Below, one piece after another: positions 47,810 to 58,877 of a stretch of 64,000 bases of DNA. The stretch comes from Sulfitobacter sp. OXR-159 (GTDB lineage: Bacteria; Pseudomonadota; Alphaproteobacteria; Rhodobacterales; Rhodobacteraceae): contig NZ_CP139707.1 in the NCBI RefSeq assembly GCF_034377145.1, positions 2,740,501-2,804,500 of the forward strand, read 5' to 3'. Numbering within the stretch: the first letter of the stretch is position 1; every line of letters begins with the position of its first letter. Position numbers and translations under genes: made by a program. Under the pieces are notes generated by a model. The model did not search any database. It was not told where the DNA came from and saw only the letters and a list, made by a program, of their open reading frames with translations.

Positions 47810-48523
47810 CTAGAAGCTGTGCCAAACCCCGACTTTGACCTTGGTCACGCTATCGGTGAATTCATGGGACAGGCCGAACTCCAGAAAGCTGTTCTCGGAC
47901 ACTTTGACCACATGCGACGGGGCGAAGACCAATGTTTCATCGCCGTCAGAGGGGGCCGCGAATTCCAGCTTGAAAATCGACAGGTTGCCATTGGCGTGGT
48001 TGATGCCAAAGGAACTGTCGATCTTGCCCAGACCTTCGCCGTCTTCGTAGAGGGCATAGGTGCTTTCCACCCCCAGCCAGCCGTTGCCCCATGCGCCCGA
48101 CACCGGGCGGCCCCATGACAGGCCGGGCCGCAGGGCCGCCACCGCGCTGCCATCGCGCTCGGCCCAGCCAAGACCAAGTTCAGCGGCGAAAACGTTGTCC
48201 CCCTCAGGTGCCCCCAATGGATAGCGCAAAAAGGCGATGGCGCTGACCTGACCGGCGTCTCGGCTTTTGCCGATGTCGAGACCGAAGGTCAGTTTCTCGG
48301 TGACACCGTATTCATAGTAAAACGCCCCGTAATCGCCGAAGTCGGGGCCATCTACCGTGGATTCATATGACAGCGTTACAAAGCTTTTGTCCTCGCCCCG
48401 CGGCCAAGCCGCCGAAGTCACCTCGCTTGCCGAAACGGTCAATGCCGCAAACGCCGAGAGGAAAACGAGGCCGGACCATATGCGCCGCGTGGATCCTGTG
48501 GGCATCTGTGCTGTTTTGGGCAT
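47810..48523 (-). CDS. Predicted outer-membrane beta-barrel protein
   Basis: A 237-residue protein with a signal peptide (IWSGLVFLSAFAALTVSAS). Alternating strands follow with aromatic girdle residues, for example FVTLSYESTVDG, AFYYEYGVTEKLTFGLDIGK and FLEFGLSHEFTDSVTKVKVGVWHSF. The terminal Phe is the usual beta-barrel assembly signal. No specific family was recognised. It converges on the LysR gene and is monocistronic. Confidence 0.65.
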   Translation of the reverse strand: MPKTAQMPTGSTRRIWSGLVFLSAFAALTVSASEVTSAAWPRGEDKSFVTLSYESTVDGPDFGDYGAFYYEYGVTEKLTFGLDIGKSRDAGQVSAIAFLRYPLGAPEGDNVFAAELGLGWAERDGSAVAALRPGLSWGRPVSGAWGNGWLGVESTYALYEDGEGLGKIDSSFGINHANGNLSIFKLEFAAPSDGDETLVFAPSHVVKVSENSFLEFGLSHEFTDSVTKVKVGVWHSF

Positions 48524-48570
48524 GATAAGTTCCGCTTAATCAAAGCCGCGAGGGGCTGCGCGATGAGGTA

Positions 48571-48930
48571 TTAGGCGATCGACCGAATGAAATCCGCCAG
48601 CTTTAGCGGTTTGAACGGTTTGTGCAGAATGTAGTCGGCCCCAAGGGCGCGAAACTTCTTTTCCGATTCCGGCGAGGTTTTGGCGGTGCACATCACGATC
48701 TTCGTGTCGTCCAAATCCGCATTGGCCCGCGCACAGCGCAACACCTCCATGCCATCGGGGGGCGGCATCATCACATCCAGCATGATCACGTCGAAAGACT
48801 GGGTTTCCATCGTGGCAATCGCGTCCAGCCCGGTGGCCGCGAATGTCGGTTCGATGTCATCTTCGGTCATGATCGCAAACTCGATCAACTCGCGGATGTC
48901 ATCCTCGTCATCGACGAACAACACTCTCAT
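48571..48930 (-). CDS. Single-domain response regulator (CheY-like)
   Basis: A 119-residue receiver with no output domain. Acidic pocket residues are Asp7, Asp8 and phospho-acceptor Asp52 (VIMLDVMMPPPDG). Thr82 (MCTAKT) and Lys104 (LHKPF) complete the set. It is the last gene of the seven-gene polysaccharide/phosphorelay operon and overlaps the histidine kinase gene by four bases. It probably accepts phosphate from that kinase or passes it to the Hpt protein. Confidence 0.93.
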   Translation of the reverse strand: MRVLFVDDEDDIRELIEFAIMTEDDIEPTFAATGLDAIATMETQSFDVIMLDVMMPPPDGMEVLRCARANADLDDTKIVMCTAKTSPESEKKFRALGADYILHKPFKPLKLADFIRSIA

Positions 48931-50930
48931 GCCGGGGCCCCCTGCTCGGGCGTGGCACCAGTATCACGGGCGAACCGCACATAGAATGTGGTGCCGGGGT
49001 TTTCGTCTCCGTCTTCTTCAGAGCGCGTCTCAAAGCTTATATCGCCATCTTGTCGCAACACCAACTCCCGCGTGATGGCCAAACCCAGCCCCGTGCCATT
49101 CGCTTGGTTTTCGCGAGAATGCACAGGGTCAGCGAACCTTTTGAACATACGATCATGCGCGGATCTAGGGATGCCCGGCCCCGCATCGCAGACATAGAAC
49201 GTGACCCATTGATCGTCCACCTCGGCGCCGATTTTTACCGTCCCGCCGCGCGGCGTATATTTGACCGCGTTCGAGATCAGGTTGGAAAAGATCTGCTGCA
49301 TGCGCACGGTGTCCACCTGCACATAGGCCTCTTGCGCCGCGTTTGGCCCTGCGTGAATGTCGAGTTGCACATCACGGTTCACCCCATAGCCGGTGTTGGC
49401 GGCAATCGCCTCTGACAGCACTTCCGACACCGCGACCCGCTCGGCTTGGATGCTGAGTTGGCGTTGGTCAATAGCCTGAAGGGTCAGGATGTCATTGACC
49501 AGCACCAAAAGCCGGTCGGCGTTGCGGGTGGCCATCGACAACAGTTTGCCCGCGTTCTTTGGCATGGTATCGCCAAAGCGGTCGTGCAGAATTTCAAGCG
49601 ACCCGGCAAGGGATGTAAGCGGCGTGCGCAATTCGTGATTGACCGAGGTAACAAAGGCCGTGCGCGCCGCCACCAGACGCTCTTCGGCAGAGATATCCTG
49701 AAGCACGTTATAGGCGATATAATCCCCATGCAGATGCAGTTTCATCACCCGGCATTGCACCGCCACACTCTCGTTCTCTGCCGTGGGGATCTGAACGCGG
49801 TGAACGGCCACGTCTTCGTCCATCTGCGAAAAGGGAGGGACCATGCCGCGCAGCTTTTGGACGGCGTCGATATCCGATGAGACGCCCATCAGTTGCCGCG
49901 CCTTGCGGTTGGAGCGGTGCAGCTTGTTGTTGTCATTGTAGACGATCAGCCCGTCGCCGACATTCTCGAAAATCGCGTCGAATTCGCTCTGCGCCACACG
50001 AATGCGCTCGCGGTCGCGTTCGGAGTTGCGCAGGGCCTGCGCCAGTTGGGTCGACTGCCGTCTGGCGCGGATCGCCGCGTTGATCACCGTCAAGAACAGG
50101 ATCGTCGCAAGGCCCGCAAACGCCACCGTGCGCTGCCAATAGCTTTGCATGACCGCCGCTTTGCTGCGCGTCACGTCGATATAAAGGTCAAGCGCCGGGA
50201 TCTCCTTGCGCGCGCGGAACACCGGCGTGTCGGGGTCACGCTGGGGCCGCCCCGAGGCAAAGGCGCGCTCTCCGTTGGAGGTCACCACCTCGACATACAT
50301 GTCCTGTTGCAGCCCATCCAACGCAAGCAGCTGGGAGTAGTAGTCTTCGCCCAAGGACGACGCCAGCACCCCGCGCGGTTGACCGTCGATGCCGATCAAG
50401 GGCCATGCAATCGGCGTCAGCCGCCGCCCTGTGGCGCGCGATACGATAGGCACCCCGACCGTGTATTCATCAACATCAAGCCCGATCGCTGCCTGAAAAT
50501 AGGCCCGGTCCCCAAGGTACTGCCCCATCAGAGGTTTGATCGTGGCCCAAAGCACGACCCCATCCGCACCGATCAGCACCAGCGCATCGACCTGTTTGGT
50601 CTCTTGCACGGCGGAATTCATCAACGCGCCATATTGCGCTTCGAATTGATCCGGGTCGCTCAGACGCGCGGTCGACAGCTCGTCGATGAGCCCCCACATC
50701 CGCACATTCGCAACCGAAAGGGAGGCATCGACCGCCTGCTCATAAAGCTCTGCGAAATGCTCAAGCTCCACTTCCGCACGGGTCGTGGCGCGGTTGTAGT
50801 CGGACCACGTGAGAAACGCGAGCCCAACGAAATAGATCAGAACGACCGTTGAGATCAGTCCCCAAAACAGGGTTTGCGAGCGTGAGGAAGGCTCCGCATC
50901 GACTTTGTTGGTGGGCTCAGTGCTGACCAT
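48927..50930 (-). CDS. Membrane sensor histidine kinase with Cache-type sensor and PAS domain
   Basis: A 667-residue kinase. Two membrane helices (about 22-42 and 266-286) flank a periplasmic dCache-like domain. A PAS domain follows (SEFDAIFENVGDGLIVYNDNN, about 315-415). The H-box is SVNHELRTPLTS with His432. The ATPase domain has IFSNLISNAVKYTPRGG, DAGPGIP and GTGLGLAI. It lacks an attached receiver, fitting the separate receiver and Hpt genes of the same operon. It overlaps the upstream receiver gene by 14 bases. Confidence 0.93.
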   Translation of the reverse strand: MVSTEPTNKVDAEPSSRSQTLFWGLISTVVLIYFVGLAFLTWSDYNRATTRAEVELEHFAELYEQAVDASLSVANVRMWGLIDELSTARLSDPDQFEAQYGALMNSAVQETKQVDALVLIGADGVVLWATIKPLMGQYLGDRAYFQAAIGLDVDEYTVGVPIVSRATGRRLTPIAWPLIGIDGQPRGVLASSLGEDYYSQLLALDGLQQDMYVEVVTSNGERAFASGRPQRDPDTPVFRARKEIPALDLYIDVTRSKAAVMQSYWQRTVAFAGLATILFLTVINAAIRARRQSTQLAQALRNSERDRERIRVAQSEFDAIFENVGDGLIVYNDNNKLHRSNRKARQLMGVSSDIDAVQKLRGMVPPFSQMDEDVAVHRVQIPTAENESVAVQCRVMKLHLHGDYIAYNVLQDISAEERLVAARTAFVTSVNHELRTPLTSLAGSLEILHDRFGDTMPKNAGKLLSMATRNADRLLVLVNDILTLQAIDQRQLSIQAERVAVSEVLSEAIAANTGYGVNRDVQLDIHAGPNAAQEAYVQVDTVRMQQIFSNLISNAVKYTPRGGTVKIGAEVDDQWVTFYVCDAGPGIPRSAHDRMFKRFADPVHSRENQANGTGLGLAITRELVLRQDGDISFETRSEEDGDENPGTTFYVRFARDTGATPEQGAPA

Positions 50931-51882
50931 TCCTTGGCAGATGTCCTATATCGTTGGCGGCAAGGCAGATCGTGCCCGTCGCGCCTGTTTTTCCAGCACT
51001 TTCGACGCCCTGAATGCCCCGCGCAAGCGACGTGGCGACAGCCGCGTCGGAGGGCGGTACGACACAGGCACTGACGCTCAAAGGACGGGATGTCCAGCCT
51101 TCTTTCACAGAGGCCGACGCCTCTGCCACGGCAGAGATATACTGCTGCGCCCGCGCTTCAAGCTGCGCGTGATCGGCATGAAGCGAGCCGTAGACGAACA
51201 GGTCATCCTCCCAATGGGAAAAACCGTCCCGGGCGGGGATATCGACCTTGCCAAAAAGCCCAGCCACAAGGTGCTGAAGCTCTTGCCGCTGGCCACGCGC
51301 CGCGTCTGATTGATCGCGGTCACCGTCGATCCGAAACACGATCAAGCCAAGGTCTTTTTGCATCGCGGGGGACAACGACATGAGGTTGCCCTGAAAGCCG
51401 CCCTTGCTGCCAAAAAGGCTGGGCACCGTGGCCTCTGAAAAGCTCTGCACGGCGCGGCGGCGCGCGCCCCGGTTTTCGCCCGACCGGCGGCGGTCCAACT
51501 CTGATTTCAAGCGCAGGCAACTGCGCATTCGGGCCTGAAGCTCAATCTGGTTAAAGGGCTTGGTGACATAGTCATTGGCCCCCGCCATGAAGGCTTCGGA
51601 AAGGGAGCCCATATCTGTCCGGCTGGTCAGCATAATGATCGGCACATCGCTCCATCTGTCTAGGGCACGGATACGGGCACAAAGTTCGATACCATCGATA
51701 TCGGGCATCATTATGTCCATCAGGATCAGGTCTGCGGGGGGCTCATCGCTTTCGATCGCGTCAAGTGCCGCGCGGGGATCGATGAAGCTGACGACATCGT
51801 CGAACCCAAGCTCCGAAAGCGTGGCATTGATGAAATCCTGCGCGATGTCCGAGTCGTCAACTGCGATAATTCGTGGGCTCAT
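50917..51882 (-). CDS. Response regulator with degenerate GGDEF-like C-terminal domain
   Basis: A 321-residue protein. The receiver spans residues 1-125, with phospho-acceptor Asp56 in LILMDIMMPDIDG, a Thr in IIMLTSRTD and Lys in YVTKPF. After an Arg-rich linker, residues 175-310 follow a diguanylate-cyclase-like pattern (LGLIVFRIDGD, then FSHWEDDLFVYG, then RPLSVSACVV). The GGDEF signature would be WEDDL, so it is probably not catalytic. ATG 51882 lies four bases after the preceding gene; a longer frame reads back through that gene. Confidence 0.75.
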   Translation of the reverse strand: MSPRIIAVDDSDIAQDFINATLSELGFDDVVSFIDPRAALDAIESDEPPADLILMDIMMPDIDGIELCARIRALDRWSDVPIIMLTSRTDMGSLSEAFMAGANDYVTKPFNQIELQARMRSCLRLKSELDRRRSGENRGARRRAVQSFSEATVPSLFGSKGGFQGNLMSLSPAMQKDLGLIVFRIDGDRDQSDAARGQRQELQHLVAGLFGKVDIPARDGFSHWEDDLFVYGSLHADHAQLEARAQQYISAVAEASASVKEGWTSRPLSVSACVVPPSDAAVATSLARGIQGVESAGKTGATGTICLAANDIGHLPRNGQH

Positions 51883-51886
51883 GACT

Positions 51887-53302
51887 TTATTTCCACTCGT
51901 TAATTCTTTCAAAAACAAGCCATTGGCTGTTCTGAAAAACCTCCTCATACCCCGGCAGCTGCGATAGTCTCAGCTGCGGGAACCTGCGCAGAATTCTGTC
52001 TGCTGTGATCTGCCCCTCGGCCTGCCGCGGGACGACGATATAGTTTGTCCGCGGCACGCCCCCCTCAAGCGCCCAGTCGTAGGCAGGCTCTCCGGCGATC
52101 ACCAGCCGGTCTATATTCCCCAAACCGACCACGATCTGGGGATTTTTTTCAACATCTACCATAATTTCAGACTTGTCGCGCAAGAATGAAACAACTTCCT
52201 GCGTGGGGCGCGACGCTGCGTTCTCTTTCCCAAGCATTGCATTGGTCCAAACGCGGGTTTCGTTATGGGCGACATGGCGCATGACAAGCGCAGAGGTCAG
52301 CAGCGACAGCGCCATCAGGGTGATGGCAATGGGTTCGCGCAGCGGCAAGTTGGGCCAAAAGCGGATCGCGGCGATCAAGACGCCCAGCATGGGCGCCAGC
52401 GCCATGGCCGGGTCGCCTTCGACGTGGAAAAACGTGTTCAGCGTATACCCGCCCAGCACAGCGCCCACGGCGGCCAGCAGCGGCATGAACAGCCGCGGGA
52501 TCAAGATGTTGCGCAGGATCGCGACAAAGGCCGCGGGGCCAAGTCCGGCCAGAATGACCAAATGCTCGCGCAGGGTCAGCGGCGTCGCGGTTTCCGACAA
52601 AAGCGGGACAAGGCGGCTGTCGAAGATCATGCTGACAAACATCAGCGACCCCACGGCGGCAAGCACCGGATAGAACATCGCCACAAGATACCCCGTGGAA
52701 GAGGCCGCAATCATGCTGGGCCGCGCCGCCACGATCATGAAGGGCATCGCCCCCAGGCAGAGCATCAGACCGTAGCTGTCCGAAAGCGCCACCACCAAAA
52801 GCCCCACGGCCACTTTCATCATGTCGGGCGCGTTGCCGGTCAGCCGCAGATTAACGATGCCGCGCGCGAACAACCATGTGCCCAAGATACAGAACATCGT
52901 TTCAGGCCCATCGGCCAAGGCGCGTAAGAAGAAGGGGTTCAACGCCAGCAGAAGCACGACCAGAGCCGCAGTCACACCCGAAAACTGACCCGTATCGCGC
53001 AGATTGAGGAACCACATAACCAGCAGCCCCGCCCCCACCAGCGCAGAAAGCACGAAGGGCACTGGCACCTGTGTGGCAGGCAAGACCGCCTGCCCCAACA
53101 GCGACAGCGCATAGGGCACGGGCGGATAGAAGGCATCCGTAGCCTTGAACTGCACCGGCCCGTCGATCTGCACGATGGACTTGGCCCAAAGGTCGGTCAC
53201 ATCCATTGACAGAAAGCCATGCGCCTCGGTCCAGCCGAGGCTGAGCAAGAGCACCAGCGCCAGCACGACAAAGCCAAAGGACCAAAAGGCGGCGCGGATC
53301 AT
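51887..53302 (-). CDS. Multi-pass membrane protein, ArnT/PMT-like glycosyltransferase candidate
   Basis: A 471-residue protein with about ten membrane helices in residues 1-360 and a soluble C-terminal part. An acidic pair in the first periplasmic loop (SMDVTDLWAKSI) and the overall layout recall family 39/ArnT-type glycosyltransferases, which use lipid-linked sugars, but similarity is weak. It overlaps the glycosyltransferase gene by four bases and precedes the receiver gene by four. Its transcription may be reduced by the upstream insertion sequence. Confidence 0.6.
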   Translation of the reverse strand: MIRAAFWSFGFVVLALVLLLSLGWTEAHGFLSMDVTDLWAKSIVQIDGPVQFKATDAFYPPVPYALSLLGQAVLPATQVPVPFVLSALVGAGLLVMWFLNLRDTGQFSGVTAALVVLLLALNPFFLRALADGPETMFCILGTWLFARGIVNLRLTGNAPDMMKVAVGLLVVALSDSYGLMLCLGAMPFMIVAARPSMIAASSTGYLVAMFYPVLAAVGSLMFVSMIFDSRLVPLLSETATPLTLREHLVILAGLGPAAFVAILRNILIPRLFMPLLAAVGAVLGGYTLNTFFHVEGDPAMALAPMLGVLIAAIRFWPNLPLREPIAITLMALSLLTSALVMRHVAHNETRVWTNAMLGKENAASRPTQEVVSFLRDKSEIMVDVEKNPQIVVGLGNIDRLVIAGEPAYDWALEGGVPRTNYIVVPRQAEGQITADRILRRFPQLRLSQLPGYEEVFQNSQWLVFERINEWK

Positions 53303-53659
53303 TGCGTGGCCTCCGTCGCTTCGGCGCTGGCTTCGGCGACCTCATTGGCGGTGTGTTTGGACAGGCCGTGCTGGGTCTTCTCCCAGTAGAACGGGTTGAA
53401 GATCAGTTGCGACAGCGCCTTGTAAGAGGCCACGGTCATCAACACCCAATAGCCCACCACCGTGATCCCCCAAGGGGCCAGATCGGTCCATCTGCGCCTA
53501 AAGGGCGCGACCATCGTGAGGTAGATCAGCAGCCCATTGCCCGCCAAAAGGTTGACCAGCGAAAGATACAGCACCGGCAGCGGGAAATAGGGGGTGATCA
53601 CCTCGGTCCCGAAGATCAGCCAAATGGCAAAGATCGACCAGAACACCGGGTTCAACAGA
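53299..53659 (-). pseudogene. 3' part of the IS-split family 2 glycosyltransferase gene
   Basis: These bases encode the lost C-terminal 118 residues of the glycosyltransferase whose 5' part begins at 56579. The segment starts LNPVFWSIFAIWLIFGTEV and has about three membrane helices plus a cytoplasmic tail ending EASAEATEATQ. An open frame runs on into the insertion sequence, giving an apparent start at 53778, but that portion is IS sequence in antisense. Rejoining at the shared CAGA restores reading as SGLL-LNPVFW in frame. Confidence 0.88.
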
Positions 53660-53663
53660 TGGA

Positions 53664-53676
53664 GTGGTTGCCGCCC
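53664..53676 (+). repeat. Left subterminal inverted repeat of the IS
   Basis: GTGGTTGCCGCCC, the exact reverse complement of 55029-55041. It begins four bases inside the inferred left border. Confidence 0.8.
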
Positions 53677-53744
53677 TCCCCAGACGGCATCGCAATGTGC
53701 CAAGGTCGTGGTGTTGAAAGCCACACAAAGAGGAGGACGGCGAG

Positions 53745-54773
53745 ATGAAGGATATGATGATCGGGGTCGATCTGGCAAAGAATGTTTTTCAAGTTCATGG
53801 GGCGCTGCACACGGGGGAGATTCAGTTTCGCAAGAAGCTGACGCGAACGCAGTTTCCCGTGTTCATGGCTAAGCAGGAGCCAAGCTTGGTTATCCTCGAG
53901 GCATGTGGCAGCGCACATTATTGGGCGCGCGAGATGGAAGCGCTTGGACATGAGGTAAAACTCATCGCGCCACAGTATGCTCGCCCGTTCGTGAAGCGCC
54001 AGAAAAACGACGCTGCCGACGCCGAGGCGATTGTCATCGCGGCTCGCCAGCCCGAGATGCGCTTCGTGGAGCCTAAAACAGTCGAGCAACAATCGCGCGC
54101 GGCAGTTTTCCGTGGCCGGGAACGCCTGGTGCATCAGCGGACGGCGGATGTGAACGCCTTGCGGGCGCTGTTGTATGAGCATGGGCATGTGTTTCCTCAA
54201 GGGATACGCAGTCTTAATCGCATCACAGCGCTTGTAGAGGATAAGACTGCCGACTTGCTGTCATTGATCCGCGAGGAGTGCTTGGACCTGCTGGCGCAGA
54301 TTGCAGAGAAAACGGCGCGTATCAACGAACGCACCGCGAAACTCGAGTCGCTGGCCGCTGAGTCAGACAGGGCGCGCAGGCTTCAGACTATGCCCGGTGT
54401 TGGGCCACTGACGGCCATCGCTGTAGAAGCGTTTGGACCTGATATGGCGCAGTTCAAAACGGGACGTGACTTTGCGGCTTGGTTGGGTCTGGTGCCCAAG
54501 CAACATTCTTCGGGAGGCAAAGAACGTTTGGGGCGGATGACCAAGGCCGGGCAAGCTGATATAAGACGTCTCTTGATCATTGGGGCAATGTCGCGGCTGG
54601 GCTGGCTCGGACGGCGCACAATTACGGAGGGCAGCTGGCTATCACGATTGTTGGCGCGCAAGCCCAAGATGCTGGTCGCTATCGCGCTGGCCAATAAGAT
54701 GGCCCGGCAAATCTGGGCGATGCTGACAAAGAACGAAGATTACAAGGATCCGGCGCTGGCAGTCGCGGCATGA
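53745..54773 (+). CDS. IS110-family transposase (DEDD/Ser recombinase)
   Basis: A 342-residue transposase that looks intact. The RuvC-like N-terminal domain carries Asp9 (GVDLAKN), Glu52 (LEACGSAHYW), Asp89 and Asp92 (KNDAADAEA), the DEDD set. The C-terminal transposase_20 domain has MPGVGPLTAIAVEAFG and the serine motif PKQHSSGGKERLG (Ser255/256). A GAGGAGG ribosome-binding site precedes ATG 53745. IS110 enzymes act with an element-encoded bridge RNA that selects target and donor. Confidence 0.95.
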   Translation: MKDMMIGVDLAKNVFQVHGALHTGEIQFRKKLTRTQFPVFMAKQEPSLVILEACGSAHYWAREMEALGHEVKLIAPQYARPFVKRQKNDAADAEAIVIAARQPEMRFVEPKTVEQQSRAAVFRGRERLVHQRTADVNALRALLYEHGHVFPQGIRSLNRITALVEDKTADLLSLIREECLDLLAQIAEKTARINERTAKLESLAAESDRARRLQTMPGVGPLTAIAVEAFGPDMAQFKTGRDFAAWLGLVPKQHSSGGKERLGRMTKAGQADIRRLLIIGAMSRLGWLGRRTITEGSWLSRLLARKPKMLVAIALANKMARQIWAMLTKNEDYKDPALAVAA

Positions 54774-55028
54774 TGCTCTTGTTGAACTGCTAGCGACGGT
54801 GCCAAGGGGAGTGTAAGAAGACGACGACCTGAATGGGCAAAACGATCGAATAGATCTGGATTGGGAAAACCAGTTAGGGCCTACGAGCTCAGAGCTCGCT
54901 CAACAGATTTGGACCTGATCCGCTGATCACCATCCCGGCCCGCGGCTTTTGGAAGTGCCGCATCTCGAGGCCTTACAGAAGACCGCACTCGATCACTCGC
55001 CAATAGGGTCAAAAAATTCTTGCACTAC
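54774..55028 (+). ncRNA. Candidate bridge-RNA region in the IS right end
   Basis: This 255-base non-coding right end is where IS1111-group elements are expected to encode their bridge RNA. It holds a perfect palindrome CGAGCTC-A-GAGCTCG (54894-54908) and a short CTGG/CCAG stem (54856-54873). TGTTGAAC (54780-54787) and ACAGAAG (54975-54981) match the rebuilt target site. These matches are short and could be chance. Exact RNA ends cannot be given. Confidence 0.4.
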
Positions 55029-55041
55029 GGGCGGCAACCAC
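55029..55041 (-). repeat. Right subterminal inverted repeat of the IS
   Basis: GGGCGGCAACCAC, the exact reverse complement of the left copy. It ends three bases inside the inferred right border. Confidence 0.8.
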
Positions 55042-55044
55042 AGA

Positions 55045-56579
55045 AGGCCCGACAGCACCGTGCCCCCGATGAAGAAGATAAAGCCAAAGACCCCCGCACT
55101 GCCGACCGATTGCCACAGGTGAATCGGTCTGCGGCTGTGCACAAGGAAGGTCTGCATATAGCCCTTGATCCAGCGCGACCGCTGGCGCACCCAGTTCGGG
55201 ATCGAAACATTGGCCTCTTCAAAGGTCGTGGAATCGATGACGCCGACGCGGTAGCCCTTTTGCGTCAGACGAATGCCCAGATCGGCGTCCTCGGTCACGT
55301 TGAAGGGATCCCATGCGTTCAACTCGCGCAGCACGTCCATGCGGAAGTGGTTCGAGGTGCCGCCCAGCGGGATCGGCACACCCAAACGCTCCAACCCCGG
55401 CAGCATCAGGTCGAACCACAGCGAATAGTCCAAGGTGAACATCCGTGTCAGCCAGTTTTCCCGCGCGTTGTAGTAGTTCAAACGGCACTGAATACAGGCG
55501 GTATTGGGCGCGGATTGGTTGAAGGCGGCGATGACCTTTTTCAACTGATCCGGCTCTGGCTTGTCCTCGGCGTCAAAGATCACAAGGAAATCGCCCTGCG
55601 CATAGCGCAGCGCAAAGTTGCAGGCTTTGGGCTTGGTCTGCGGATGCGAGGCCGGCACGCGGATGATCTCAAACACGCCTTCGAGGTCCAGCTTGCGCGC
55701 CGCGTCGATCGTCTCGTGATCACCCTCTTCCAGCACGATCTTGATGTCGAGCTTGGCCAGCGGGTAGTCGAGATTGCGCAGCGCTTGGGCAAGGATCGGC
55801 AGCACCTCAGGCTCGCGGAACATCGGCACCAGCACGGTATAGATCGGCAGGTCTTCGTCGCGCAGCAGCGACGCCTCAGCCGCGATGGCCCGCGATGAGG
55901 TCTCCTGCGCGGCACCGCCCAGCCAGACCAGCAGGGCTTTGAACAGGAAGTTTCCGGTGTAGAACACGGTCAGAAAGACGTTCAGCACGATCAGCGTGAC
56001 CACTGGCGAAAACGCGAGCCCCAGCAACAGGGCCGAGACCAAAAGGTAAATCACCAAGATCTGCGGCGGGGTCACCACATTCTGCGCCGACATATCCGGG
56101 TCAAGCTCTGCCAGAGCAAAGACCGCTTCATGGGAATGTTTCTCCCGGAAGGCGCGTTGTAGCTGCCATGACACATCGAAATGCGATGCCACCACGATGG
56201 TCACGCCGGTGCCGTAAACCTCGCGGATGTGCAGCAGTGTGCGCGGCCCGGGCCGCGAGGTGGCCACCGTCAGGGTACCATCCTCTGCCCGGCCAATCGG
56301 CACCGTCATAAACTGGTTCATCACCACCGGATCATACTGCCGGATCAGATCATCATCGGCGCGGTCTTCGATCAGATCGACCAGCGTCAGCCCGTGGTAA
56401 AAGGCGATCTCCCGGTAGAGTGTCTGCGTGGTCAGCCAGCGCCGCGACAGGAGAACTTTGACCAGAGAGACGTTCCAGTCTTCGGCCAAATCCTCTGCCG
56501 CGTCGAGCTGTTCAGCCGTCAGCGCGCCACGGTCAAGCAGCAGCGAACCAATGGCTTCGCTTTCGGCATCCAACGCCAC
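55045..56579 (-). pseudogene. 5' part of the IS-split family 2 glycosyltransferase gene
   Basis: This encodes the first 511-513 residues of a processive membrane glycosyltransferase. Residues 8-150 resemble an MshEN/GspE N-terminal domain. Two helices (about 173-220) precede a GT2 domain with FDAED (335-339), TEDADLG (429-435) and QRSRW (466-470), the D-D-D-QxxRW pattern of cellulose-synthase-like enzymes. Translation starts at GTG 56579. The frame now runs into the IS, adding 15 foreign residues (WLPPVVQEFFDPIGE) and stopping at 54993, so the last membrane helices are lost. Confidence 0.9.
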
Positions 56580-56585
56580 GGTGAC

Positions 56586-58529
56586 TTACGTCTCGTCTTT
56601 GCCGCGACGCGCGCGGTAGACGCGCTGGAAGACGATCAGCACAAGCAGCGTCACCAGCACCCAGATGGCCCCAACGATCCAAGGGCGGTACTTGGCCAGC
56701 ATCTGCGCAAGGCTGCTGCGGTCAGGGTAGACGACATCAACAAGCGGGCTGCGGTCAGTGGCAGTGGCAAGGATCACCCCGTCCTGCCCGAGGAGGGCCA
56801 GATCGCCCCGGTCCAGCATCATGGGCCGCTCGGGCGTCAGTTCCGGTGCCGGGCCGTTGCCCGGACGCAGCCACAGACCACGGGTATCGCCACGGGTGAC
56901 GATCTGCACCACACCAAGGCGCGACAGGTCTTCGCCCGAATAGATCAAGTTGTCTCTACGGTCGCGCACCTCAATGCGGCCCTGATCAAAGGTGATCAGC
57001 GGGTCGCCATCTCCGGGGTTTTGCTCAGAGATCACAAAGAAAGGCTCGTCCCCTTCAAGCGCGTCGACCGAGGCGCGGGGCAGGATGGTGGCACGGTCCG
57101 GGATCACGCTGCCCGCAACGCCTGCGAGCCACGGCAGTGTTTGCGCGAAATCCAGCGATAGATCGGGGTCGAGCACGACCTGAACACCATTGCCGAACTC
57201 CTGTCGCAGGGCAAAGAAATCCTGATCCTGCGGCGCGGCATCGGAAAGCAACAAGGCGCTGCCGGGCAGGATTTGCGCCGGATAGCCCTGCCGCTTGAAC
57301 CGGCATTCGCCGCCCGTGGGCTGACGCTGGATCGACACGCGCAGCAGGTTGTCGCGCCCCAGCAGGCCGCTGGGCACAGAAAAGGTCAATTGCTCGGGCT
57401 TGCCACTGCCAAGCGGGCGGTTGCCCAAAAGCGTGTCATTCAGAAAGACCGAGGCCGTCGCCCCGCGCCCTTCGGGATCAAGCGCTGCGGCCACATGCAG
57501 GTTAACACCGGCCACGCCCTTGCCCGCTGGAAGATCCGAGGACTGGAACGGAACAAAGAAGTCTTCGGTCGAGACCACGGCGCGCGGGGTGAGATCGGCC
57601 TGCAAAGCAGAGAGCGGCAAGCGGTCATCGAACAGAGCCTGAGCCCCTGCCACATCGACCACGGTCGCATCCGTGTTCGACAGGGCCGACCATTCCGACA
57701 TCATCTGCCACAGCCCCACCTGCGGATCACTGCCGCGCAGGGTCAAGACCGGCAGGCCCGTTTGGGTATCCACGGCCATCTCACTCGCCACGCCAGAGGC
57801 AGTCACGTCAAGCTGGATGACACCTTCGGACCATGCGCCCGCCGGGCTTGCCGTTTCCTCAGCAAAGGTCAGTCGCCCTGCCTCGGCGTCAAACAACGCC
57901 GCGGCGCGGGTCGCGGCAGCCAGAGCGGCGAGGGAATCGTTTCCGTTGATCGCAAGGCGCGTATTCGCAGGACGCAGCCCCGCGAAGGCAGCCGATGTGT
58001 CGATTTCCGAGGGGTCCAGTTGCAACGTCACGGAAGACGCCGCCGTGATCTCAAGGAAATCCCCCGAGGCACGCTCGTCCACACAGACCCGATCACTGAG
58101 GGCGCCGGAATAGGACAGGCCCACGGCGATAAACCCGCCAGAGACGTCTTCGGGGCTGAGCGGCACGGGCAGGCTCAGGCGCCCTGCCCCATTCGGCAGC
58201 GCCTGCGATGTCACGGGGCGGCCCGCGACCGACACTTGCAAATAGCGGTCCACCTCGGTGGTGGAGGCGTGTTCAAGCTCCAGCTGCAAGCTGCCCGAGT
58301 TCAGCGCATCCGCGTCGGGCAGCGGAATATAGATCGTCGCGTTTCCAGACAGTTGTCGGAAGGAAATGCCGTTTTGAAACCCAAGCTCCGCCAGATCGAA
58401 GGTCCGTGCGATCAGCCCCTCTTGGACCTGCTCCGCGGGGGCACGCGCCGCGTCCTCACCCGTGGTCGTTTGAGCGTGAACTTGAAACGGCAGCAAAGCC
58501 GCCAGCAAACCAATTGCGGGATACTTCAT
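56586..58529 (-). CDS. BcsB-like periplasmic polysaccharide-synthesis protein
   Basis: A 647-residue protein with a signal peptide (MKYPAIGLLAALLPFQVHAQ), a large periplasmic part and a C-terminal membrane anchor (WIVGAIWVLVTLLVLIVFQRVYRARR). Segments such as FDLAELGFQNGISFRQLSGNATIYIPLPDADAL and VSVAGRPV resemble BcsB, which guides cellulose through the periplasm beside the synthase. It is immediately upstream of the glycosyltransferase gene, as in bcs operons, but no bcsC, bcsZ or PilZ domain is present. The polymer is therefore not necessarily cellulose. Confidence 0.75.
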   Translation of the reverse strand: MKYPAIGLLAALLPFQVHAQTTTGEDAARAPAEQVQEGLIARTFDLAELGFQNGISFRQLSGNATIYIPLPDADALNSGSLQLELEHASTTEVDRYLQVSVAGRPVTSQALPNGAGRLSLPVPLSPEDVSGGFIAVGLSYSGALSDRVCVDERASGDFLEITAASSVTLQLDPSEIDTSAAFAGLRPANTRLAINGNDSLAALAAATRAAALFDAEAGRLTFAEETASPAGAWSEGVIQLDVTASGVASEMAVDTQTGLPVLTLRGSDPQVGLWQMMSEWSALSNTDATVVDVAGAQALFDDRLPLSALQADLTPRAVVSTEDFFVPFQSSDLPAGKGVAGVNLHVAAALDPEGRGATASVFLNDTLLGNRPLGSGKPEQLTFSVPSGLLGRDNLLRVSIQRQPTGGECRFKRQGYPAQILPGSALLLSDAAPQDQDFFALRQEFGNGVQVVLDPDLSLDFAQTLPWLAGVAGSVIPDRATILPRASVDALEGDEPFFVISEQNPGDGDPLITFDQGRIEVRDRRDNLIYSGEDLSRLGVVQIVTRGDTRGLWLRPGNGPAPELTPERPMMLDRGDLALLGQDGVILATATDRSPLVDVVYPDRSSLAQMLAKYRPWIVGAIWVLVTLLVLIVFQRVYRARRGKDET

Positions 58530-58541
58530 GGAAAGGCTTTC

Positions 58542-58877
58542 TTAGATATTTTCGACGACGCTATTGGCATCGGCCAGAGCCGTCTCAATTATACGAACAT
58601 CATCGGCTGACAAGGGCGAAGAGGACTCATCGGCATCTTCGGCGACGCGCAGCCCCTTGCGCAGACAATCTTCAATCTCAAGGTATTCCAGCATCGCGGC
58701 GTTCCCGGCCAGATCGTGCAGCATGCGGTGGACCTTGCGCGCTTTCGTCTCGCGCGGATCGGCCCCGTCCGTCTCGCGCAGTGCGTCAGAGACGGCCTGC
58801 AAGCGATCCGGGATCCCTTCGATAAAGCGTTTTCGCGTGGCGGCAACGCGCTGTTCATATGTCTCGGTAGGTGCCAC
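58542..58877 (-). CDS. Hpt-domain histidine phosphotransfer protein
   Basis: A 111-residue helical protein. The motif HDLAGNAAMLEYLEIED carries the phospho-accepting His54 of Hpt domains. It has no other domain. Translation starts at GTG 58877 behind an AAGGAC ribosome-binding site. It is the first gene of the seven-gene operon, 12 bases before the BcsB-like gene, and would shuttle phosphate between the receivers encoded at the other end. Confidence 0.83.
   Translation of the reverse strand: MAPTETYEQRVAATRKRFIEGIPDRLQAVSDALRETDGADPRETKARKVHRMLHDLAGNAAMLEYLEIEDCLRKGLRVAEDADESSSPLSADDVRIIETALADANSVVENI

Follow-up and report, generated by a model that had tools for sequence, protein, structure and literature searches.

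What divides a gene for a cellulose-synthase-like glycosyltransferase (GT2) in Sulfitobacter sp. OXR-159, and why does the break lie where it does? In the window (the whole stretch of 64,000 nucleotides analysed here, positions 2,740,501 to 2,804,500 of contig NZ_CP139707.1), a rightward IS110-family transposase gene lies between two halves of this gene that share strand and phase, an arrangement first noticed from the sequence alone and confirmed here by the open reading frames (ORFs) and by domain matches. Empty sites in relatives, four identical copies of the element and guides that match the site bear out the proposal that an IS1111-group insertion splits the gene. The whole explanation, that an RNA-guided insertion of this element inactivates the membrane synthase, is given a probability of roughly 0.88.

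The 5' part of the synthase gene (55045..56579, minus strand) begins with a GTG start at 56579 and comprises codons 1-511 and the CT of codon 512. Its product contains the Pfam domains MshEN (residues 62-149) and GT2 (from residue 247) and is 99% identical to the intact orthologue in genome G047 (locus L009). The 3' part (53299..53658, minus strand) consists of the core CT, the rest of codon 512, 118 codons starting LNPVFW and a stop; the C-terminal fragment from LNPVFW (53299-53655, 118 codons plus stop) has the strand and phase of the 5' part. As it now stands, the truncated ORF (54993-56579, minus strand) encodes 528 amino acids. The element supplies residues 513-528 through a segment (54993..55044, minus strand) holding the last base of codon 512, 16 residues and a stop; the tail had previously been counted as 15 residues.

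In a survey of 57 same-genus genomes, a synthase orthologue of 85-99% identity was present in six and uninterrupted, in a stop-to-stop frame of 632 in five of them and 668 in the sixth. The coding length is 630 codons in all six loci read to the stop (L009, L010, L012, L013, L058 and L068); L011 and L014 fall outside this comparison on account of their start pattern. All eight of the nearest loci encode SGLLNPVFW at the site, which in the gene direction is GGGC-CT-GTTGAACCC and reads GGGCCTGTTGAACCCGG in four of the eight (L009, L011, L012 and L058). At the junctions of the interrupted gene, GGGCCT is followed by TCTG on one side and AT by CTGTTGAACC on the other, so that the two overlap by CT only, or AG in the element direction. 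The original prediction had taken CAGA, present at both junctions, as a duplicated unit. The empty sites show that the two junctions share only CT, and this candidate was rejected; the CAGA on the right belongs to the end of the element and recurs there in each of the four identical copies. The ancestral gene can indeed be rebuilt, with 630 codons and not 631, a 2-bp core and one leucine fewer at the join than had been proposed. Comparison with orthologues, suggested as a check, gave continuous frames and an empty site that differs from the earlier rebuilt junction at the 3-bp level, correcting the join and leaving the interruption standing. The near relatives of the genome include Sulfitobacter sp. 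EAC16 (a metagenome-assembled genome (MAG), 99%) and S. dubius DSM 16472 (98%).

The inserted DNA is 1388 bp long (53657..55044, plus strand, or equally 53659-55046), with the AG core that it has in common with the target at 53657-53658 and 55045-55046; it was inserted at this AG without further duplication. It encodes a 342-amino-acid IS110-family DEDD recombinase (53745..54773, plus strand; PF01548 44.2 bits, PF02371 84.8 bits, NF033542 293.5 bits against a cut-off of 140), with 86 nt upstream of the transposase gene and 271 nt of non-coding sequence downstream. Perfect 13-bp subterminal inverted repeats, GTGGTTGCCGCCC on the left (53664..53676, plus strand) and GGGCGGCAACCAC on the right (55029..55041, plus strand), are inset from both ends. 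The element has the following features of the IS1111 group: a DEDD transposase whose Transposase_20 domain scores above the curated cut-offs, subterminal inverted repeats within the range of 7-17 bp, a long non-coding region 3' of the transposase gene, a short common core without further duplication and, by sequence and fold, a predicted guide RNA in which the complement of the top strand precedes the match to the bottom strand. IS1111 elements with a seekRNA or bridge RNA, such as ISEc11 and ISPa11, are described with the same recombinase, 13-bp subterminal repeats, RNA region 3' of the transposase gene, guide order and lack of extra duplication (PMC11187229, PMC11208160); the present element differs from them in its guide sequences and target, and belongs to an RNA-guided kind that is already known.

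The core of the predicted bridge RNA or seekRNA (54853..54991, plus strand) lies within the 271-nt right end and, in the consensus fold of 12 related right ends, forms a target-binding loop followed by a donor-binding loop. RNAalifold placed the guides of these 12 sequences in the first internal loop of a two-loop fold with 38 pairs, three of them changed on both sides. At 54867-54912 the order is AAACCAG, TTAGGGCCT, a hairpin, CTCAACAG and ATTTGG. The right target guide TTAGGGCCT (54874..54882, plus strand) is complementary to AGGCCC of the empty site, and the left target guide TCAACAG (54900..54906, plus strand) is identical to TCAACAG on its top strand. Joined, the two guides give TCAACAGGCCC, which is the empty site, with 11 contiguous bases as TCAAC-AG-GCCC. 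This order, with the top-strand complement first, is that reported for IS1111 elements (PMC11187229). In the second part of the RNA region the sequence ACAGAAG of the element right end recurs, as a donor guide would, making 54975..54981 (plus strand) the candidate left donor guide; a candidate right donor guide, CATCT (54961..54965, plus strand), pairs with AGATG at the element left end, weakly, and is not kept in all relatives. Searches of four relatives against Rfam yielded nothing that exceeded a gathering score; in the window at 53000-56700 the matches, to snoRNA families and a frameshift element, were weak and all below their gathering scores.

The genome (4.42 Mb in eight contigs) contains four copies of the element, two each on contig C1 and contig C6 (89 kb), identical over 1390 positions (the 1388 bp and the second core copy). 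Contig C3 carries a 69% relative, C1 has two further partial matches of 64% (L006 and L007), and the three nearest full-length plasmid relatives have 82-85% nucleotide identity. The four identical copies, obtained in the genome search that had been proposed, suggest recent movement of the element. The insertion in the synthase gene is probably also recent, because it is identical to the three remaining full copies and both parts of the gene carry no substitutions beyond those expected of a conserved gene. Counting the core, the left guide agrees with the flanks of the four copies at 7, 7, 7 and 5 of its 8 positions, the right guide at 7, 6, 6 and 7 of 9.

Guides and flanks also vary together across related elements. 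Matches were found in 87 plasmid records, 16 related elements were compared and 11 guide groups entered a permutation. The elements L145, L146, L149 and L153 (guide type and target type as in L143), the second copies L002-L004, L148 and L152, and L141, whose ends were not recognised, stood outside it; L139 and L140 are near relatives. Both guide segments vary amid kept surrounding sequence and track the flanks. In the first permutation the guides scored a sum of 120 on their own flanks, compared with a best of 98 in 100,000 reassignments. When the guide segments were cut mechanically, the sum was 105 and the best reassignment 87 when no register shift was allowed, 120 against 105 when it was, and 110 against 104 after removal of the present element. 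In two held-out comparisons, the right guide of L041 and the left guide of L039 each fitted 8 of 9 positions, core included. Since none of the 100,000 reassignments reached the fit of guides to their own flanks, RNA guidance is likely to be the reason for the insertion point.

Several observations weigh against this interpretation. That the guide RNA is made and directed this insertion is predicted from sequence and fold only; covariation contributes little to the consensus fold (-1.02 kcal/mol), and the donor guides are weak. Fit was uneven among the 11 representatives, with left guides matching from 3 (L005 and L151) to 6 of 6 non-core positions; the right guide of L147 had 0 matches in the standard register and reached 7 only if shifted, and the guide of L140 scored equally on its own flank and on that of another group. 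In the first permutation the L005 guide, cut by eye, was one base out of place, an offset removed in the mechanical repeat. Within the present genome, the left guide fits just 5 of 8 positions at the copy beside merR. The site is not distinguished by its rarity either. Outside the site, TCAACAGGCCC was not found again in the genome, and the 14-nt guide consensus had no genomic match with fewer than two mismatches. Backward control patterns were as frequent or more so (4 vs 2 in the 11-mer search, 18 vs 7 in the 14-nt search), and uniqueness of the 11-mer was rejected as statistical evidence. Rarity of the site proves nothing, because the backward control of the 14-nt search gives 18 and seven other places have two mismatches, as the empty site had. 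In other genomes, the 11-mer occurs in one to four copies in five of six related genomes, one of them inside the orthologous gene in three. Finally, no inactivating change other than the insertion was seen in the synthase gene, so that its inactivity is read from structure alone.

The remaining copies and relatives of the element have sites of their own. One C6 copy (L157 7304-9178, at about 83300-85180) has a MerR-type regulator gene on one side and a merT gene on the other, and may cut the regulator off from its promoter region; none of the MerR-like, MerT-like and flavoprotein matches reaches the NCBIfam cut-off, with the MerT match above that of Pfam. The other C6 copy (L156 5337-7796) cuts a helicase-like ORF with an AAA_34 match, leaving 819 amino acids. 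The second copy on C1 (L155 7602-9131) is intergenic, between a LacI-family regulator and eda/edd of the Entner-Doudoroff pathway. Related elements on five Sinorhizobium plasmids (L143, L145, L146, L149 and L153) share a type of site that their guides match; in the four records with a gene annotated at that place, the element lies at the end of repC or overlaps this end. Their guide is apparently aimed at plasmid replication genes.

In the proposed mechanism, a bridge RNA or seekRNA from the right end of the element would pair with TCAAC-AG on one strand and with AG-GCCC on the other. Recombination at the common AG core would insert the 1388 bp in codon 512 of the 630-codon gene, without further duplication, and the synthase would then end after 16 element-encoded residues, lacking some three membrane segments and the invariant C-terminal tail. 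The operon would most likely stop making its polymer.

Hydropathy in overlapping windows places hydrophobic runs beyond residue 512 at about 514-534, 537-564 and 571-589, and in a structure model of the intact orthologue the cut at 512 falls inside a long helix (485-527), with helices 538-565 and 569-598 wholly beyond it. Both agree with the loss of about three membrane helices that had been foreseen, and the invariant C-terminal motif goes with them. With these parts gone, loss of function of the truncated form is very likely. The idea of a natural loss-of-function mutant is likewise probable, qualified by an intact 35% paralogue and by the precise excision of IS110-family elements, which could make the OFF state reversible. 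In a survey of orthologue end points (80 loci, of which five were left out for a match beginning at or near a contig end or covering only part of the query), no measured relative had a natural end at the truncation point. In one MAG orthologue (L094, 4713 onwards), codon 507 of the match is an in-frame TAG, beyond which the frame continues; this stop lies very close to the insertion point here and is either a sequencing error or a second natural break.

Could the 528-residue protein still work, alone or with a separately translated C-terminal fragment? The motifs DAED, TED and QRSRW all precede the cut, and a TTG lies in phase with the open 3' fragment. Against this stand the missing membrane segments and tail and the absence of any measured relative that ends there; the 16 residues, LWLPPVVQEFFDPIGE, moreover end the unrelated helicase-like ORF cut on C6, so that the tail is not an adapted feature. 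A functional truncated form is accordingly regarded as very improbable. An assembly or chimera artefact is more improbable still: four identical copies could let short reads be misjoined, but every copy is bounded by a separate pair of flanks that could derive from a single target, and here the flanks are two halves of one gene that fit the orthologues to the base.

If the insertion is genuine and inactivating, its permanence has to be judged. Some decay of the broken gene might have been expected, and none was seen in either part: the first 511 codons differ from L009 at 54 positions, 49 of them synonymous, and the 357 nt from LNPVFW to the stop at three, all synonymous. Excision of IS492 is reportedly of high frequency and precise. 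Precise excision at the AG core could in the same way restore the 630-codon gene in part of the population. Element and target gene are both complete, with a recombinase above the family cut-offs, subterminal repeats, intact guides and an exact core; scarless excision is described for IS110 elements (PMC11208160), and mobilisation of IS492, an IS110-superfamily element tied to marine exopolysaccharide production in Pseudoalteromonas atlantica, is said to control phase variation of that polymer (PMC2536512). However, the lack of decay fits a recent insertion equally well, and IS492 belongs to the IS110 side (PMC11187229), whereas the present element is of the IS1111 type. We regard such a switch as unlikely. 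Slightly less likely again is its fuller form, in which the element would be an RNA-addressed, reversible OFF switch for a polysaccharide synthase of the cyclic di-guanosine monophosphate (c-di-GMP) type, a guide-programmed phase variation; excision would bring the polymer back and a new insertion would tend to fall in the same codon, because the 11-nt guide match occurs nowhere else in the genome. Reversibility is nevertheless the more interesting reading, and the point worth testing. A permanent loss, neutral or selected (by laboratory passage, planktonic life or escape from a glycan-using phage), after which the gene will decay, appears probable. The synthase is evidently dispensable, because the close orthologue is patchy in the genus, in only six of 57 genomes. 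In E. coli, phage N4 depends on the glycan made by the MshEN-GT2 protein NfrB (PMC8669469), and N4-like phages have been described for Sulfitobacter as well (PMC2784036, PMC3894267). Yet no decay has so far appeared in the genes compared, the phage link is one of analogy with a protein of different domain order, and a search of the roseophage paper PMC2784036 found no mention of a receptor, NfrA or adsorption.

The gene interrupted by the insertion appears to encode a BcsA-like GT2 core with a membrane channel and an N-terminal MshEN domain of c-di-GMP type, whose sequence suggests putative c-di-GMP binding and a part in polysaccharide synthesis. It resembles NfrB of E. coli, a c-di-GMP-controlled exopolysaccharide synthase that also combines GT2 and MshEN (PMC8669469). 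In NfrB, MshEN is C-terminal (GT2 then MshEN), whereas here it is N-terminal, and the partner genes are NfrA and YbcH there but BcsB-like and sensor or regulator genes here. From BcsA cellulose synthase it differs in scoring 51.2 bits against the 699.1 of the CelA equivalog (for the truncated form), and no PilZ domain was found at E 0.05 in the intact orthologue.

The operon order is Hpt, BcsB-like, synthase, 471-amino-acid protein, response regulator and histidine kinase, all on the minus strand. The Hpt-domain gene (58542..58877) encodes 111 amino acids (PF01627 25.0 bits, cut-off 24.6) and the BcsB-like gene (56586..58529) 647 (PF03170 30.9 bits, cut-off 21), full length as in L058 and L068. 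Downstream of the synthase, the 471-amino-acid protein (51887..53302), which has no Pfam match and adjoins the synthase in many relatives, the response regulator (50917..51948) and the sensor histidine kinase (48927..50930) are full length; these three and the BcsB-like protein have the lengths found in L058. Among 80 related loci (tblastn, E 1e-5), neighbours matched the BcsB-like protein in 60, the 471-amino-acid protein in 54, the regulator in 51, the kinase in 23 and Hpt in 13; several of the loci run into a contig end, and a match to the regulator or the kinase need not mark an orthologue. The BcsB-like/MshEN-GT2/471-amino-acid/regulator/kinase cluster (window 47810-58877) is conserved across Alphaproteobacteria and partly in other bacteria; its proteins of 471 and 237 amino acids have no Pfam match above the cut-off. 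The paralogue, a second MshEN-GT2 gene (648 amino acids), stands alone on C1 near 1.12 Mb (L154 8391-10337) and may or may not make a similar polymer; matches of its class (32-46% identity), judged by score and not by gene order, occur in 56 of the 57 same-genus genomes. A limited literature search near the topic found no description of the polymer of this operon, and searches at the level of titles (IS1111 with Sulfitobacter; insertion sequences with Roseobacter exopolysaccharide) found no published mention of the insertion.

The locus provides a clean natural case in which the point of a gene-breaking insertion can be read from the guide sequence, with the empty site known from relatives and further guide types, reprogrammed in nature, to serve as controls. 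The locus likewise draws attention to a BcsB-like/MshEN-GT2/sensor operon that can be compared between one interrupted and several intact relatives in Sulfitobacter.

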